Of a DNA stretch of 64,000 bases, positions 27,392 through 34,670 are shown one piece after another. Source of the DNA: Kofleriaceae bacterium. Its GTDB lineage: Bacteria; Myxococcota_A; Polyangia; Haliangiales; Haliangiaceae. Location of the stretch: positions 1 through 64,000 of the forward strand of contig JAGPCY010000031.1 of NCBI GenBank assembly GCA_018057825.1, read 5' to 3'. The notes beneath the pieces were generated by a model. It worked only from the letters and a program-made list of their open reading frames with translations. It did not search any database and had not been told where the DNA came from. The number at the start of each line of letters is the position of its first letter. The stretch's first letter is position 1. Both the position numbers and the translations under genes were made by a program.

Positions 27392-27889
27392 ATGGCTGAT
27401 ATGGAAACTCGCATCAACGAACTCGTCGCCACCTTCGTCGCCGAGATCACTCGGCTGGCCCGGACGGCGGCGCTCGACACCCTCAACCGCGCCCTCGGCA
27501 CCGACGGCGGCTCCCCAGCCCCAGCGCCCGCCCCCATCGCGGCGGCGCCGGCGGCTCGTCCCGCCCGCGCCCCGCGCCCGGCCAGCGCCGCGAGCGCCAG
27601 CGCCAAGCGGGCCAAGGGCGAGAAGCGCCCCAAGGCCGAGATCGCGCAGATGCAGGATCAGGTGCTGGCTCACATCAAGGCCAACCCGGGTCAGCGGATC
27701 GAGCACATCAACAAGGTGCTCGGCACCAAGACCTCGGACCTGACGCTGCCGCTCAAGAAGCTCATCGCGGCCGGCGCGGTCACGACCAAGGGCGCGCGCC
27801 GCGCGACCACGTACTTCCCGGGCTCCGGCGACGGGACCGCGGCGGCCGGCAAGGCCAGCGGCGGCAAGAAGCGCAAGCGCGGCAAGTAG
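27392..27889 (+). CDS. Histone H1-like / winged-helix DNA-binding protein
   Basis: A 165-residue protein with three parts: an N-terminal helix (TRINELVATFVAEITRLART), a long Ala/Pro/Lys-rich linker, and a compact C-terminal helix-turn-helix (about 95-145, QMQDQVLAHIKANPGQRIEHINKVL cut into shorter pieces) followed by a basic KKRKRGK tail. The architecture resembles nucleoid-associated proteins that bind DNA by a winged helix and basic tails. No operon partners are visible. Leader positions 27321-27391 are AT-richer than average and probably contain the promoter. Confidence 0.72.
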   Translation: MADMETRINELVATFVAEITRLARTAALDTLNRALGTDGGSPAPAPAPIAAAPAARPARAPRPASAASASAKRAKGEKRPKAEIAQMQDQVLAHIKANPGQRIEHINKVLGTKTSDLTLPLKKLIAAGAVTTKGARRATTYFPGSGDGTAAAGKASGGKKRKRGK

Positions 27890-27922
27890 CGGTCGAGGGG
27901 CGGGTGGGACGAGCGCGCGGCC

Positions 27923-28023
27923 GCCGATGATGCGGTCGCCGATGGTGCGGTCGCCGATGGTGCGGTCGCCGATGGTGCGGTCGCCGATGGTGCGGTCGCC
28001 GATGGTGCGGTCGCCGATGGTGC
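27923..28023. repeat. 15-bp tandem repeat, about 6.7 copies
   Basis: The unit GCCGATGGTGCGGTC is repeated six full times plus 11 nt. The first copy differs by one base (GATGATG). It sits between the stop at 27889 and the promoter of the acyl-CoA synthetase. It is unrelated in sequence to the hexanucleotide tracts. Confidence 0.97.
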
Positions 28024-28065
28024 CGCGAAGTGAGCCGGCCGCTGGCCGGATTCACCGGCCGCGGC

Positions 28066-28071
28066 TACAGT
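28066..28071 (+). promoter_or_regulatory. -10-like hexamer of the acyl-CoA synthetase gene
   Basis: TACAGT lies 30 nt before GTG 28102. A TTGGAG ribosome binding site (28090-28095) precedes that start, so this gene appears to have a short normal leader. Confidence 0.45.
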
Positions 28072-28101
28072 GTCGCTCGGGGGAACCACTTGGAGTCCGA
28101 C

Positions 28102-29875
28102 GTGCCCGCACGCGACACGATCATCCATCGCTTCTTGGCGCAGGGCGTCGCACGCCCGGCCGCGCCCGCCTACTTCACCAAACAAGGTGGCGTCTGGCGC
28201 CCGACCACCTGGCGCGACTACGTCGTCGAGGTCCGCACCGCGGCCCGGGCGCTGATCGCGCTCGGGTTCCCGGCCGGCGGCAAGGTCGCCATCCTCGGGT
28301 TCAACCGCCCCGAGTGGGTGATCTTCGATCTCGCGGCGATGATGGCCGGCGGCGCGGCCGCCGGCATCTACACCACCTGCTCCGCCGAGGAGGTCCAGTA
28401 CATCGTCGATCACTCCGAGGCCCACGCGATCCTGATCGAGGATCGCGGGCAGTGGGACAAGCTGGCCGCGCAGCGCGACCGCCTGCCCCGGCTGCGCTGG
28501 GTGGTCGCCATGCGCGACTGCCCGCCGATCGATGATCCGCTGGTCCTGTCGTGGTCGGCCTTCCTCGACAAGGCCGCCGCGGTCACCGACGGCGAGCTCG
28601 ACGGCCGGATCGACCGCCTCGAGCAGGCCGCGCTGGCGACCCTGATCTACACCTCGGGCACGACCGGGCCGCCCAAGGGGGTGATGCTGTCCCACGCCAA
28701 CCTGGCCTGGACCGCGCGCGCGCTCCTCGATCAAGGCGGCGCGGCCAGCGACGACTGCGCGCTGTCGTACCTGCCGCTGTCGCACATCGCCGAGCAGATG
28801 TCGACGATCCTCGTGCCGGCGACCTCGGGCGCGACGATCTACTTCGCCGAGTCGATCGACAAGGTCCCCGACAACCTGAAGGAAGGTCCAGCCGACGGTG
28901 GTCTTCGGGGTGCCGCGGATCTGGGAGAAGTTCCACGCCGGCGTGACCGCCAAGCTGGCCGCCGCCACCGGCGCCAAGGCCCGCCTGGTGCGGTGGACCC
29001 AGGACGTCTGTCGTCGCGTCCAGGCCCTGCGCAACCGCGGCAAGGAGCCCGGTGGCCTCCTGGCCCTGCAGTATCGGCTGGCCGATCGACTGGTGCTGTC
29101 GAAGCTCAAGCCGGCCCTGGGCCTGGGCCGGGCCCGGCTGTGCGTCACCGGCGCCGCGCCGCTGGCCAAGGATGTCATCGAGTTCTTCGCGTCGATCGAT
29201 CTGCCGCTCTACGAGATCTACGGCCAGTCCGAGGACTGCGGACCGACCTCGTTCAACCTGCCGGGCAAGACCAAGTTCGGAACCGTCGGCAAGCCGCTGC
29301 CCGGGGTCGAGGTTCGGCTGGCCGACGACGGCGAGATCCTGGTGCGCGGCCCCAACGTCTTCCTCGGCTACTACAAGGAGCCCGAGGCGACCCGCGAGAC
29401 CATGGACGGCGAGTGGCTGCGCTCCGGCGACCTCGGGTCCTTCGACGAGGACGGCTTCCTGTCGATCACCGGGCGCAAGAAGGAGATCCTCATCACCGCC
29501 GGCGGCAAGAACATCGCGCCCAAGAACATCGAGGCCGCGATCAAGGAGTCGCCGCTGGTGGCCGAGGCGGTGGTGATCGGCGACCGCCGCAAGTTCCTGT
29601 CGGCGCTGATCGTGGTCGACGACGCCGCGGTGGCCGCGGCCCTGGGCCCGGCCGACGGCCCGCGCGACCGCCGGGCCGAGCTGCGGGCCGCCCTCGAGGC
29701 GCACCTTGCGGTGGTCAACGACAAGCTGGCCCGCGTCGAGCAGATCAAGAAGTTCACGATCCTCGAGCGGCCGTTCGCGATCGAGACCGGCGAGCTGACC
29801 CCGACGCTCAAGATCAAACGCAAGGTCGTGTCCTACAACTTCGCGACCGAGATCGAGGCGATGTACCAGGAGTGA
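28102..29875 (+). pseudogene. Long-chain acyl-CoA synthetase (AMP-forming), frameshifted
   Basis: Read through one +1 shift this would be an AMP-binding enzyme of about 590 residues, the usual length of FadD15-like long-chain acyl-CoA synthetases. The first part carries the phosphate-binding loop YTSGTTGPPKG and YLPLSHIAEQ and ends after IDKVPDNLKE. The second part resumes in the next frame with VVFGVPRIWEKFHAGV and has YGQSEDCG, the SGDLG motif and the C-terminal KKEILITAGGKNIAPKN. One extra base within 28879-28886 (aaggaagg, where aaggagg is expected) explains the break. All catalytic motifs remain, so sequencing error, recent inactivation or frameshifting are all possible. The start is GTG 28102, with SD TTGGAG. 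Confidence 0.85.
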
Positions 29876-29929: not shown

Positions 29930-31135
29930 GTGCTGGTTCCCCTGCCGCGGCTCCGTGGCGCCAAGTCCTGGGTCCTGTCGTGTGGCGCAGTGGCGCTGGT
30001 CGGCGTGGTGGTGGCCGCGGTCACCGGCGCCCCCGGGCCGACCGACGGCGCGCCGGCGGTCCGCCGGCCACCGCCCGACGAGGTCATCGCGACCGTCGAC
30101 GCCCGCGATCGCGGCGCGCGCGCGGCGGCCGCCGCCGGCGACGTCGCCGCCGCCGCCGCGTTGGTGCGCGCCGATCTGGCAGCGGCCCGCGCGACCGGCG
30201 ATCCGCGGCCGCTGGGCCGGGCCCGCGCCACCCTGGCGGCGTGGGCCGCGGTCGCCGAGCCGCCCGCGCCCCTGGGCCTCCTGCGCGCCACCGTGGCCCA
30301 AGCCCTCCACGACTTCCCGGCCGCGCGCGCCGACCTCGACCGGCTGATCGCCGCCGCCCCCGACGACGCGCAGGCCCGGCTGACCCGGGCCGTGGTCGCC
30401 CTGGTCACCGGCGATCGCGCGACCGCCGCCGCCGACTGCGCCGCGGTCGAGCAGGAGGTCGGCGCGCTGTGGGGCGCCGCGTGCGCCGCGCCGCTGGCGG
30501 CCACCCGCGGCGGCGGTCCAGCCGGCCGGCAACGGCTGCGCGCCGCGCTGGCCTCGGCCGGCGATCACCCGGCCCGGGCCTGGGCGCTGACCGCGCTGGC
30601 CGAGCTCGAGCGGCAGCTCGGCGACGACCGCGCCGCCGAGCTGGCCTTGCGCCAGGCGGTGGCCGCCGACGCCGCCGACCTGTACGCCCAGGGCGCGCTC
30701 GCCGACCTCTTGCTCGACGCTGGCCGCCCGGCCGAGGTGGTCGTGCTCCTGGCCGAGGCCAGCGCCGAGCACCTGGTGGTGCGGCGCGCGATCGCCTTGC
30801 ACCAAAGCGCCCCGGGCTCGGCCGCGACCGCCGCCGATCGCGCCGCGTTGACCGCGCGCTTCGCCGACCGGGTCGACCCCGCCGACGAGCTGCACCTGCG
30901 CGAGCGAGCGCGCTTCCGTTTGGCGATCGTCGGTGACCCCCGCGGCGCGCTGGCCGACGCGGTCGCCAACTGGGCCCAGCAGCGCGAGCTGGCCGACGCC
31001 CGGTTGGTCCTGGCCGCGGCGCGGGCCGCTGGCGACCGCGCGGCCGCCGCCCCGGTGCTGGCCTGGCTCGACGCCGTCGGCGTCGACGACGCGGTCAGCG
31101 CTGGCGATCGCGCGGCCCTGGGCGGTGCGCCGTGA
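29930..31135 (+). CDS. TPR-like repeat protein, membrane-anchored
   Basis: A 401-residue Ala-rich protein with an N-terminal hydrophobic segment (about residues 15-35) and then helical pairs of TPR type (for example FPAARADLDRLIAAAPDDAQARL and ARAWALTALAELERQLGDD, quoted in part). It should form a protein-binding scaffold in the periplasm. The GTG start at 29930 is approximate. The gene overlaps the HupE/UreJ-like gene by GTGA, and with it begins a five-gene operon that ends with the DUF4331 protein and a small lipoprotein. Confidence 0.75.
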   Translation: MLVPLPRLRGAKSWVLSCGAVALVGVVVAAVTGAPGPTDGAPAVRRPPPDEVIATVDARDRGARAAAAAGDVAAAAALVRADLAAARATGDPRPLGRARATLAAWAAVAEPPAPLGLLRATVAQALHDFPAARADLDRLIAAAPDDAQARLTRAVVALVTGDRATAAADCAAVEQEVGALWGAACAAPLAATRGGGPAGRQRLRAALASAGDHPARAWALTALAELERQLGDDRAAELALRQAVAADAADLYAQGALADLLLDAGRPAEVVVLLAEASAEHLVVRRAIALHQSAPGSAATAADRAALTARFADRVDPADELHLRERARFRLAIVGDPRGALADAVANWAQQRELADARLVLAAARAAGDRAAAAPVLAWLDAVGVDDAVSAGDRAALGGAP

Positions 31136-32223
31136 AGGCCGGGCTATGCGCCGCCCTGGCGCTCGCGATCTGCGCCGTGACCGCGGCCCCGGCCGCCGCC
31201 CACCGCGAGAGCACCGGCTACCTGTCGCTCACCGTCGACGGCGCCACCGTCACTGGCCGCCTCGAGCTCACCGCCGGCGAGCTGGCCCGCGCGGTCGTCC
31301 TCGACGACGGTGACGGCGCCGTGCGCTGGCGCGAGGTCGAGGCGGCGGCGCCGGCGCTGACCGCGTACCTGGCGCCCCGCGTGGTGCTGACCGTGGCCGC
31401 CGGGCCGTGCCCGCTCCAGTTCGCGCCCGAAGGCGTCGTCGATCGCGACGACGGCCCAGCGATCGCGATCGCCCTGGTCGCGACCTGCCCCGGCCCGGCC
31501 GAGCCGCTCACGATCGACTATCGCGCGCTGGTCGAGGTCGACGCGCGCCACCGCGCGCTGATCCGGCTGACCACCGCCGGCGGCACCACCGCGGCGATCG
31601 CCCGCGGCGCCCCGGTCACCGTGCGCGGCGACACCGCCCCGCGGGTCCGCGACTTCGTGGCCACCGGGGTCTGGCACATCTGGATCGGCCTCGACCACGT
31701 GTTGTTCCTCCTCGCCCTGCTCTTGCCGGCGGTGTGGGTGCGGCGCGGGCGCGGCTTCGTGCCGGCGGCCACGCCGGGCGCGGTGGCCCGCGATGTCCTC
31801 GCGGTCGTCACCGCCTTCACGGTCGCGCACTCGATCACGCTGGCGGTCGCCACCGCGGGCTGGCTGACCGTGCCACCGCGGCTGATCGAACCGGCGATCG
31901 CGGTCTCGGTCGCGCTGGCCGCGCTCAACAACCTGTGGCCGGTGATCGACGGTCGCTGGGCCGCGGCCTTCGCCCTCGGGCTCCTCCACGGGTTCGGCTT
32001 CTCCGGCGTGCTCGCCGAGCTGGGCCTGCCACCAGCCGCCCTGGCCCCGGCGCTCATCGGCTTCAACCTCGGCGTCGAGCTCGGTCAGCTCGCGATCGTC
32101 GTCGCCGTCCTCCCGCTGGCCTACCTGGCCCGCGCCACCCGCGCGTACCGCGCCGTGGTCCTCCTCGGGTCGATCGCGATGGTCGCGATCGCCACGCTGT
32201 GGGCGATCACCCGCGCGCTGTGA
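31132..32223 (+). CDS. HupE/UreJ-family membrane protein with exported N-terminal domain
   Basis: A 363-residue protein. A signal peptide and a soluble beta-rich domain (about residues 22-170) precede a multi-helix membrane domain. The latter has HIWIGLDHVLFLLALLLP and LLHGFGFSG, typical of HupE/UreJ-2 proteins. HupE and UreJ are nickel/cobalt permease-like accessory proteins of hydrogenase and urease clusters, but no such enzyme is in the window, so the metal role is inference. Its position between TPR and DUF4331 genes is the more telling context. Confidence 0.82.
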   Translation: MKAGLCAALALAICAVTAAPAAAHRESTGYLSLTVDGATVTGRLELTAGELARAVVLDDGDGAVRWREVEAAAPALTAYLAPRVVLTVAAGPCPLQFAPEGVVDRDDGPAIAIALVATCPGPAEPLTIDYRALVEVDARHRALIRLTTAGGTTAAIARGAPVTVRGDTAPRVRDFVATGVWHIWIGLDHVLFLLALLLPAVWVRRGRGFVPAATPGAVARDVLAVVTAFTVAHSITLAVATAGWLTVPPRLIEPAIAVSVALAALNNLWPVIDGRWAAAFALGLLHGFGFSGVLAELGLPPAALAPALIGFNLGVELGQLAIVVAVLPLAYLARATRAYRAVVLLGSIAMVAIATLWAITRAL

Positions 32224-32234
32224 ACGGAGTCGTC

Positions 32235-32777
32235 ATGCACCTGCCCTCGCCGCTCGCCGCGATCCTGAGCCTCGCCGCCGTCGCCACCCTCGCCGCCTGC
32301 CGGGACCGCCCGACGACCGGGCCGACCGCCGCCGCCGCGCCCGCCCTGCCCGCGCCCACCGCCGCGACCCCGGCCGCCGCCGGCGCGGGCGGCGCCGAGC
32401 TGCGCTCCCTGGCCGGGCGTCTGGCCTTCGAGGCCGCCAACCGTCCGACCGGCACCCCGCGCCTCGAGGCGCTGGTGACCGCGGCCGCCGCCGCCGGGGT
32501 CGAGATCGTCGACACCCGCCAGTACCTCGGGCTGACCGCGGCCGCGGCCTACTGCGCCGGCGGCCGCACCGCCGATGGCCTGGCGGTGGCGGTGTGCGAG
32601 TACCCCGATCCCGCCGCCGCCGCCGCCGGGCGCGCCCACGTCGAGCGCCGGTTCCCCGACGTCGGTCTGTCCCGCCGGATCGTCGTCCGCGGCGCGACCA
32701 CCTTGACCACCACCGCGCACGATCCCGGCCTGACCGGGACCCAGGCCGCGGTCGAGCGCGTCTTCGCGACGCTGTGA
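32235..32777 (+). CDS. Hypothetical lipoprotein
   Basis: A 180-residue lipoprotein (lipobox LAAC, Cys22) with an Ala/Pro-rich spacer, then a domain with GVEIVDTRQYLGLTAAAAYC and LAVAVCEYPDPAAAAAG, which contains two cysteines. I recognise no named family. A GGAG 6 nt before ATG 32235 supports the start. It lies 11 nt after the HupE-like gene, inside the DUF4331 operon. Confidence 0.7.
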   Translation: MHLPSPLAAILSLAAVATLAACRDRPTTGPTAAAAPALPAPTAATPAAAGAGGAELRSLAGRLAFEAANRPTGTPRLEALVTAAAAAGVEIVDTRQYLGLTAAAAYCAGGRTADGLAVAVCEYPDPAAAAAGRAHVERRFPDVGLSRRIVVRGATTLTTTAHDPGLTGTQAAVERVFATL

Positions 32778-32844
32778 CCGCGGGCGCCGCCCGCTGGCTT
32801 CCGCGCCGATCTCGGCGCCGATTCATCAACCGACAGGAGGACCC

Positions 32845-34386
32845 ATGCACCCGAAGCTCGTGGGTGGAGCGCTGCTCATCGCCGCAGCGACTCTGCCCGC
32901 CCCGATCTACGCCTCGAGCCATCGCGAGGCGCCGTTCATCACCGAGAACCCGAAGGTCGACGCCACCGACTTCTACATGTTCTCGAGCTACGAGGCCGGC
33001 CGCGCCGGCTACGTGACGCTCATCGCCAACTACCTGCCGCTGCAGGCGGCCTACGGCGGCCCCAACTACTTCACCCTCGATCCCGACGCGCTCTACGAGA
33101 TCCACGTCGACAACAACGGCGACGCGGTCGAGGACCTGACCTTCCAGTTCGACTTCTCGCTGGCGCTGGCCAGCGGGGGCGCCGGGCTGCGCCTGCCGGT
33201 CGGCCCGTCGGCGAACCAGCGCATGGTCGCGGTGCCGTTCACCAACATCGGCGCGGTAACCGCGGCCGATCGCACGGCCCAGAACGTCCTCGAGAGCTAC
33301 ACGGTCACGCTGGTGCGCGGCGATCGCCGGACCGGCACCGCGACCCCGATCGCCAACGCGACCGGCGGCGCGACCACCTTCGCCAAGCCGCTCGACAACA
33401 TCGGCACCAAGTCGATCGCCAACTACGCGGCCTACGCCAACGCCCACATCTACGACGTCACGATCCCGGGCTGCACGCCGCCGGCCGGAACCTCGCCGCG
33501 GGTCTTCGTCGGCCAGCGCGCCGAGGGCTTCGCCGTCAACCTCGGCCAGATCTTCGATCTGGTGAACCTCGATCTCGACGCCGCCACGCCCCAGGCCAAC
33601 CCGATCGGCGCCCAGGATCAGAACGCCAACACGATCGCCGGGGCCAGCGTCACGACCCTGGCGATCGAGGTGCCGGCGAGCTGTCTGAACGACGCCGCCG
33701 ACACCAAGATCGGCGCCTGGACCACCGCCAGCCTGCGCCAGGCCCGGGTCTTGAACCCGGCCGCCGGCTTCGCCAACCCGACCCGCGAGGGCGGCGCCTG
33801 GACCCAGGTCTCGCGCCTCGGCATGCCGCTGGTCAACGAGGTCGTGATCGGCCTGCCCGACAAGGACAAGTTCAACGGCAGCGAGCCGTCGGGCGACGGC
33901 CAGTTCATCGATTACGTCACCCACCCGACCTTGCCCGAGGTCCTGGAGATCCTGTTCGGCGGGGTCGGCGTGGTCGCCCCCAACAACTTCCCGCGCACCG
34001 ATCTGGTGACCGCGTTCTTGACCGGCATCCCGGGCGTCAACGACACCGCGACGCCGTCGGAGATGTTGCGCTTGAACACCGGCGTGCCGGCGACCGCGGC
34101 CGCGGCGCAGAACTCGCTGGGCGCCGCGCTGTGCGTCGATCGCACCGCCACCGGCGCGGTGGTCGACCTGACCAACACCGGCTGCGATCCGGCCGGCTTC
34201 CCCAACGGCCGGCGCCCGGGCGACGACGTGACCGATCTGGCGCTGCGGGTGGCCATGGGCTACCTGGCGCCGACCGGGGACTCGCCGGCCGGCGCGCTGC
34301 CGTTCGTCGACGGCGCGTTCCTGGCGCCGACCTCGTTCGCGGTCACCTTCCCCTACCTCAACACCCCGCGACCGGGGGCGCCGTGA
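32845..34386 (+). CDS. DUF4331-family exported protein
   Basis: A 513-residue exported protein with a signal peptide ending near YASSHREAP. The sequence SSHREAPFITENPKVDATDFYMF is the hallmark start of DUF4331, and the later parts (FNLGQIFDLVNLDLD-like strands, GRRPGDDVTDLALRVAMGY) fit the family. Its function is unknown; it is expected in the periplasm or outside the cell. A strong GGAGG precedes ATG 32845, so it may be the most highly translated gene of the operon. The next lipoprotein overlaps it by GTGA. Confidence 0.9.
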   Translation: MHPKLVGGALLIAAATLPAPIYASSHREAPFITENPKVDATDFYMFSSYEAGRAGYVTLIANYLPLQAAYGGPNYFTLDPDALYEIHVDNNGDAVEDLTFQFDFSLALASGGAGLRLPVGPSANQRMVAVPFTNIGAVTAADRTAQNVLESYTVTLVRGDRRTGTATPIANATGGATTFAKPLDNIGTKSIANYAAYANAHIYDVTIPGCTPPAGTSPRVFVGQRAEGFAVNLGQIFDLVNLDLDAATPQANPIGAQDQNANTIAGASVTTLAIEVPASCLNDAADTKIGAWTTASLRQARVLNPAAGFANPTREGGAWTQVSRLGMPLVNEVVIGLPDKDKFNGSEPSGDGQFIDYVTHPTLPEVLEILFGGVGVVAPNNFPRTDLVTAFLTGIPGVNDTATPSEMLRLNTGVPATAAAAQNSLGAALCVDRTATGAVVDLTNTGCDPAGFPNGRRPGDDVTDLALRVAMGYLAPTGDSPAGALPFVDGAFLAPTSFAVTFPYLNTPRPGAP

Positions 34387-34670
34387 AGGCCGCCCTGCGC
34401 GCCGCCGCGCTGGCCCTGGTCGGCCTGGCTGCGGCCTGCGGCGACGACGGCACCCCCGCCGGTGAGGACGGCCGGCCGCCCGACGCGCCGATGGCGATCG
34501 ACGCCGGGATCGACGCCCCGCCCGACGCCAACACCTTCACGACGTTCGTGATCGATCAGATCCAGAACCAGACCACGGCGACCGCGAGCCCGGTGCCGTT
34601 CGCGACCTTCGGGACCCTGCCCGACCCCGACGTCGACAACCCGGCGGCCTACGCCCCGCTGTTCCCCTAG
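34383..34670 (+). CDS. Small hypothetical lipoprotein
   Basis: A 95-residue lipoprotein (lipobox LAAAC, Cys19) with a PDAPMAIDAGIDAPPDAN linker of the myxobacterial type. It ends in FTTFVIDQIQNQTTATASPVPF and DPDVDNPAAYAPLFP. This tail recurs in proteins encoded next to DUF4331 genes to my knowledge, but no function is known. GTGA overlap with the DUF4331 gene argues for obligatory co-expression. Confidence 0.7.
   Translation: MKAALRAAALALVGLAAACGDDGTPAGEDGRPPDAPMAIDAGIDAPPDANTFTTFVIDQIQNQTTATASPVPFATFGTLPDPDVDNPAAYAPLFP

Follow-up and report, generated by a model that had tools for sequence, protein, structure and literature searches.

Five predicted genes, all of them supported as real by ORF reading and profile searches, lie on the + strand at 29930-34670 of the window, i.e. 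of the whole stretch of 64,000 nt that was analysed. The genes and their features are as follows.

29930..31135, +: TPR gene; weak Pfam TPR_16/TPR_12 matches; N-terminal signal or membrane anchor
31132..32223, +: HupE/UreJ_2 permease of predicted anglerase type; signal peptide, exported Ang-like beta-sandwich, membrane permease domain
31201..31203, +: codon of the predicted mature His1 of the HupE-like gene (APAAA^HRESTGYL)
31675..31698, +: HX5DH permease motif (HIWIGLDH), from translation and alignment of 46 relatives
32220..32777, +: LIP1 lipoprotein; start ATG at 32235 or overlapping GTG at 32220; lipobox LAAC
32835..32840, +: strong Shine-Dalgarno sequence AGGAGG before DUF4331, read from the sequence
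32845..34386, +: DUF4331 gene; PF14224 match at 4.6e-139; exported; predicted single large beta-rich fold
32914..32922, +: Ser-Ser-His codons of the predicted mature DUF4331 N-terminus (IYA^SSHREAP), ATCUN-type NH2-X-X-His
34383..34670, +: LIP2 small lipoprotein, directly 3' of DUF4331; no family match

An earlier sequence-only reading had described a cluster of TPR, HupE-UreJ, lipoprotein, DUF4331 and lipoprotein genes joined mostly by GTGA overlaps. This gene content was borne out by the ORFs and by matches to PF13795 and PF14224. The overlaps were found at 31132 and 34383, and possibly also at 32220; the DUF4331 gene, however, starts after a 67-base gap that follows LIP1 and carries its own AGGAGG site.

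The host genome (8.9 Mb in 84 contigs) has one DUF4331 gene and two PF13795 genes; the nearest named relatives of the complete cluster are deltaproteobacterial and myxobacterial, which makes a myxobacterial host likely. The lack of hydrogenase or urease genes, also pointed out in the earlier reading, holds for the immediate neighbourhood, where none adjoins the cluster, and in the case of urease for the entire genome; a [NiFe] hydrogenase is, however, encoded elsewhere (contigs C63 and C12). The HupE-like gene is thus not part of a hydrogenase or urease operon, the setting of accessory HupE/UreJ genes, and a direct hydrogenase accessory role at this locus was rejected, with the hydrogenases located on other contigs and no urease in the genome.

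Two side observations concern the DNA 5' of the TPR gene. The reading frame of a fatty-acid-CoA ligase gene (window 28030-29875) is broken near 28,880, with ESIDKVPDNLKE in one frame and VQPTVVFGVPRIWEKF in the next; this is a frameshift, either real or produced by a sequencing or assembly error. A short intergenic tandem repeat at 27780-28055 appears as PMVRS and HHRRP repeats in translations.

The HupE-like permease and the DUF4331 protein

The profile search placed PF13795, the C-terminal permease of anglerases, at residues 175-335 of the HupE-like protein (1.7e-47); as the match covers only these residues, the extra exported domain claimed for this protein was confirmed, at its N-terminal end. 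In an AF2 model of the protein built from 46 relatives pLDDT was 92. The top PDB match of the exported domain was 9GCE (Foldseek E 1.3e-5, prob 1.00), which is the Cu-bound Ang-1 domain of a HupE/UreJ-2 protein (PMC12537917). Alignment to 9GCE (Z 12.0 over 129 residues, 2.9 A, 22% identity) indicated the Ang beta-sandwich; the next-best folds, those of the zinc proteins ZrgA and PA4063, had Z of 8.7-10.3. A PDB sequence search with the HupE profile returned nothing relevant.

By sequence, the HupE-like protein has the His1 of anglerases, located immediately after the predicted cleavage site (APAAA^HRES). The signal peptide ends directly before His in 64 of 64 usable relatives, where the 100% is partly by construction, since the set was chosen for a His after a small residue; a crude signal-peptide score blind to residues downstream of the cut placed the cut exactly before His1 in 50 of 73 HupE proteins. 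In the permease domain H159, D165 and H166 (the HX5DH motif) as well as H210, E230, H263 and E293 are invariant in the alignment of 46 relatives. As modelled, the HupE-like protein has the anglerase architecture of signal peptide, His1, Ang domain and PF13795 permease. Anglerases with His1 bind Cu or Ni and were described in 2025, mainly by binding chemistry; Ang-1 has in vitro Kd values of 74 nM for Cu and 220 nM for Ni (PMC12537917).

The DUF4331 protein matched PF14224 over the full model (1-421) with 464.7 bits against a cut-off of 27. This widespread family has no stated function, and a search of a full-text collection for the name DUF4331 or PF14224 found no paper. The AF2 model had pLDDT 90.8 and pTM 0.92, with less confidence in the first ten residues (block mean 70). 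No PDB match was found for the model at Foldseek E<=0.001; the best matches, antibody-type Ig domains, had a VIA Z of 5.7. A single-domain match could be missed with a query of 490 residues, therefore we do not claim a new fold. A PDB sequence search with the DUF4331 profile gave nothing relevant.

X-X-His directly follows the predicted cut in 113 relatives, found in a search that itself required the His; residue -1 is Ala in 109 of the 113, residue -3 is A, S, V, T or G in 111, and the SSHREAP motif is present in 105. A crude signal-peptide model blind past the cut put the cut exactly before X-X-His in 79 of 114 proteins (69%), compared with 20%, 13% and 30% in three control families and 50% in TPR proteins. 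Across divergent DUF4331 proteins residues 1 and 2 vary, with His3 and its distance to the cut being fixed: N-halves of divergent split forms begin with ADH, SDH or IDH, and exported Acidobacteriota proteins with SSH, ANH, ASH, ADH or SDH. For the putative X-X-His start, these divergent members are a stronger argument than counts in the conserved set. The ATCUN rule is NH2-X-X-His (PMC12509749); the predicted mature DUF4331 begins in this way, a candidate Cu/Ni motif that is new here. SSHREAP (with near-invariant A6 and P7) is longer than ATCUN needs, so His3 could be structural within the predicted fold. Many invariant Asp and Arg residues are spread through the protein; a DNxGDxxED stretch and acidic conserved residues could bind calcium.

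In some loci (L148-L157, e.g. L150:7333-8673 and L149:7966-9398) DUF4331 is split into adjacent genes for an N-half and a C-half lipoprotein, mostly followed by a TPR gene; among the DUF4331 loci of the window's phylum, the N-half of the split form carries the X-X-His start and the C-half is the lipoprotein. DUF4331-like proteins of another kind (L211-L213, L215) begin with MSHH and have no obvious signal peptide and no TPR or HupE neighbours.

DUF4331 neighbourhoods in other genomes

The DUF4331 loci compared here come from three sources: the phylum of the window, a named genome collection, and the phylum to which an Acidobacteria record belongs. For a set of 76 loci, only the first two sources were used, and DUF4331 had to be flanked by 5 kb or more on either side; as retrieval was by similarity to DUF4331 and the loci are phylogenetically uneven, the fractions are descriptive. 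Within this set a HupE-like gene is located nearby in 56 loci, a TPR gene in 65, at least one of the two in 68 and a TonB receptor in 15. Over all loci, the median distance between DUF4331 and HupE genes is 1.4 kb, and 10 of 74 pairs are on opposite strands. PF13795 occurs in 196 of 284 genomes of the phylum, mostly in one to five copies; we estimate the probability of finding HupE within 10 kb by chance at ∼1% or less per locus. Given one to five copies per multi-Mb genome, its presence near DUF4331 in 56 of 76 loci, in varied orders and orientations, indicates an association beyond chance.

The order in Pseudomonadota is DUF4331-lipoprotein-TPR-HupE, in the window TPR-HupE-LIP1-DUF4331-LIP2, and other genomes have opposed genes. 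DUF4331, TPR and HupE genes occur together in Pseudomonadota, Myxococcota and Acidobacteriota, and one planctomycete has its DUF4331 and HupE genes close to each other. The genome-neighbourhood check suggested in the sequence-only reading thus found the co-occurrence in several phyla, whose absence elsewhere would have spoken against a common system. The same reading took the HupE-like protein to serve DUF4331: the linkage holds, but DUF4331 could equally serve HupE.

The permease next to DUF4331 may be exchanged. Five Acidobacteriota loci have a NicO-family nickel transporter beside DUF4331 instead of HupE; the start can be read in four of these transporters, and in all four the exported part has His as its first residue (AxA^HP[LM]GNF). 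DUF4198, a secreted nickel-binding protein with His1 after the signal peptide (PMC12537917), adjoins DUF4331 or HupE in nine fetched loci, some of which also have HupE. Neither NicO nor DUF4198 is present in the window. Among 113 loci with flanks of at least 4 kb, a His1 metal protein is present in 70, and counting TonB receptors as well raises the number to 79; the remaining 34 have no HupE, NicO, DUF4198 or TonB receptor within 6.5 kb, and these partnerless loci are a real limit on a metal-relay model. In Acinetobacter (L087, L091, L095, L098, L102) DUF4331-TPR is followed directly by a TonB-dependent receptor, which replaces HupE; one of these genomes has no PF13795 gene at all.

Against an HMM made from the TPR genes found at other DUF4331 loci, the TPR gene of the window scored 3.9e-91. 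A lipoprotein ORF (mostly of ∼75-100 residues) starts between -30 and +150 bases from the DUF4331 stop in 68 of 111 loci versus 3 of 387 shifted positions; none was found 3' of DUF4331 in the Acidobacteriota set (0/25). Close homologues of LIP2 are present in L046 and L066, and judging from this conservation LIP2 is probably a core component and not a stray gene. LIP1, which belongs to no family, has homologues in six loci only (L046, L049, L066, L092, L108 and L131), all myxobacterial or deltaproteobacterial where named; it appears to be a lineage-specific accessory. Homology of LIP1 to the Alteromonadales lipoproteins located 3' of DUF4331 was not supported (14-20% identity). A longer lipoprotein resembling a Big_9/cadherin-like domain protein follows DUF4331 in L101, L116, L129 and L142.

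ECF sigma genes are present in 48 of 114 loci, in 38 of them with an anti-sigma gene of RskA or ChrR type; for the ChrR cupin type, seen in several loci, NCBIfam gives cadmium, peroxide and UV as signals. The pattern TG[AC]ATC-N15-18-CGTA was found 5' of DUF4331 in 44 of 96 loci (0.1 expected), 5' of the ECF gene in 10 of 49 (0.15 expected), 5' of TPR in 1 of 63 and 5' of HupE in 0 of 74; the motif was derived from the same upstream regions, which makes the count in part a fit, but it far exceeds those for shuffles, TPR and HupE. This distribution fits a single ECF-driven operon led by DUF4331. Thirteen loci retain ECF without HupE. Unlike the ECF-controlled DUF4331 operons of Pseudomonadota, the window has no match to the promoter, and it contains neither ECF/anti-sigma genes of the families seen elsewhere nor a TonB receptor. 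Literature searches on PF13795, on ECF with HupE and on the promoter sequence gave nothing usable. Some loci of Duganella/Rugamonas type (L074, L081, L093, L103, L127) have a truncated-haemoglobin-like gene near the ECF pair.

A possible metal hand-off at the envelope

The sequence-only reading proposed an undescribed and possibly metal-related envelope system. The co-occurrence, the anglerase match, the His1 and X-X-His N-termini and the replacement by NicO or DUF4198 support the proposal, with the metal function itself being inferred. On balance, we think that the cluster probably encodes envelope machinery for binding Cu(II) or Ni(II) outside the inner membrane and handing it off. Export of DUF4331 and removal of its signal peptide would expose NH2-Ser-Ser-His, an ATCUN-type chelator, and the protein would carry Cu(II) or Ni(II) either in soluble form or tethered to a lipoprotein. 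From DUF4331 the metal would be handed to His1 of the Ang domain that is part of the HupE/UreJ permease, whose HX5DH permease domain would take it across the inner membrane. The exported TPR protein may scaffold carrier and permease, and LIP2 may anchor or position DUF4331. In other genomes a TonB-dependent receptor could join the pathway, and an ECF sigma/anti-sigma pair would activate the DUF4331-led operon.

Conservation of the genes, operon structure, domain matches, fixed N-terminal motifs and, in other genomes, a shared promoter are observed; where the signal peptides are cut, that metal is bound and which one, which way it moves and what TPR and LIP2 do are inferred. Copper and nickel are favoured because both motif types (X-X-His and His1) bind them. 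The published anglerase model, together with the TonB receptors that some loci contain, favours uptake over export; the metal may instead be exported, or buffered during stress. Against this module reading, the window lacks the ECF promoter, an ECF gene and a TonB receptor, and L211-L213 lack both the signal peptide and the partners.

The regulation seen elsewhere bears on a different explanation, in which DUF4331, LIP2 and TPR make up a module that acts in repair or quenching under oxidative or metal stress and is turned on by ECF factors (with ChrR- or RskA-type anti-sigma), and HupE, NicO or DUF4198 merely remove or buffer metal released by the stress. The frequency of ECF and anti-sigma genes, the stress-related annotation of the ChrR type, the promoter directly 5' of DUF4331 and the loci that keep ECF and not HupE all speak for it; we regard it as unlikely, as the genes that recur next to DUF4331 encode metal permeases and His1 metal binders, not peroxidases or repair enzymes, and the window copy has neither ECF gene nor promoter. 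It is similarly doubtful that DUF4331 is a metalloenzyme, of unassigned reaction, with His3 in its active site, supplied with metal (or relieved of it) by HupE-Ang or NicO and assembled by TPR and the lipoprotein. The long near-invariant SSHREAP, the many scattered invariant Asp and Arg residues and a predicted fold that is large, well defined and without a close PDB counterpart would suit an enzyme; against this, residues 1-2 vary in divergent members, the model is less confident exactly at these first ten residues, and the split form puts the X-X-His half and the C-terminal half on separate genes.

The DNxGDxxED stretch and the acidic conserved residues, together with the Big_9/cadherin-like domain in the lipoprotein after DUF4331 in some Alteromonadales-type loci, could also indicate a calcium-stabilised surface or adhesion protein whose HupE neighbour is conserved but functionally separate. 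Repeated linkage to two metal-permease families and to DUF4198, in varied gene order, makes this very improbable. Returning to the metal hand-off, we tentatively raise a broader proposal, which may well not hold: DUF4331 would found a class of exported protein metallophores, with an X-X-His chelator on a predicted fold that has no close solved relative, passing Cu(II) or Ni(II) to interchangeable His1 receivers (HupE-Ang, NicO, DUF4198) in an ECF-controlled relay that may reach a TonB receptor.

Through its links to a small lipoprotein, a TPR protein and anglerase-type permeases, DUF4331, a family with no stated function, acquires a concrete role that can be tested, and anglerases gain a recurrent partner set and a regulator. 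The linkage also suggests a recurring arrangement at the bacterial envelope, in which an X-X-His carrier is paired with a His1 receiver. The module is a previously undescribed gene set built around a known component, the anglerase permease. The window protein shares with the Ang-1/Ang-2 anglerases (PDB 9GCE) the signal peptide, His1, the Ang beta-sandwich with helices between strands 2 and 3, and the PF13795 permease (PMC12537917). Published anglerase neighbourhoods contain DUF4198, IndA, PfkB, metallophosphatases, DUF916 and unknowns; DUF4331, TPR, a small lipoprotein, ECF control and Myxococcota are not mentioned for them (PMC12537917). DUF4198 and DUF4331 are separate families, and the NicO (PF03824) nickel/cobalt transporters with an exported His1 domain belong to another permease family. 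ZrgA and PA4063 are stand-alone periplasmic Zn-binding proteins without a permease, and their fold match is lower than that of 9GCE. The hydrogenase-operon HupE of R. leguminosarum type (cited in PMC12537917) belongs to the same HupE/UreJ permease family and has the HX5DH motif; the window HupE, in contrast, is fused to an Ang domain and lies outside any hydrogenase operon.
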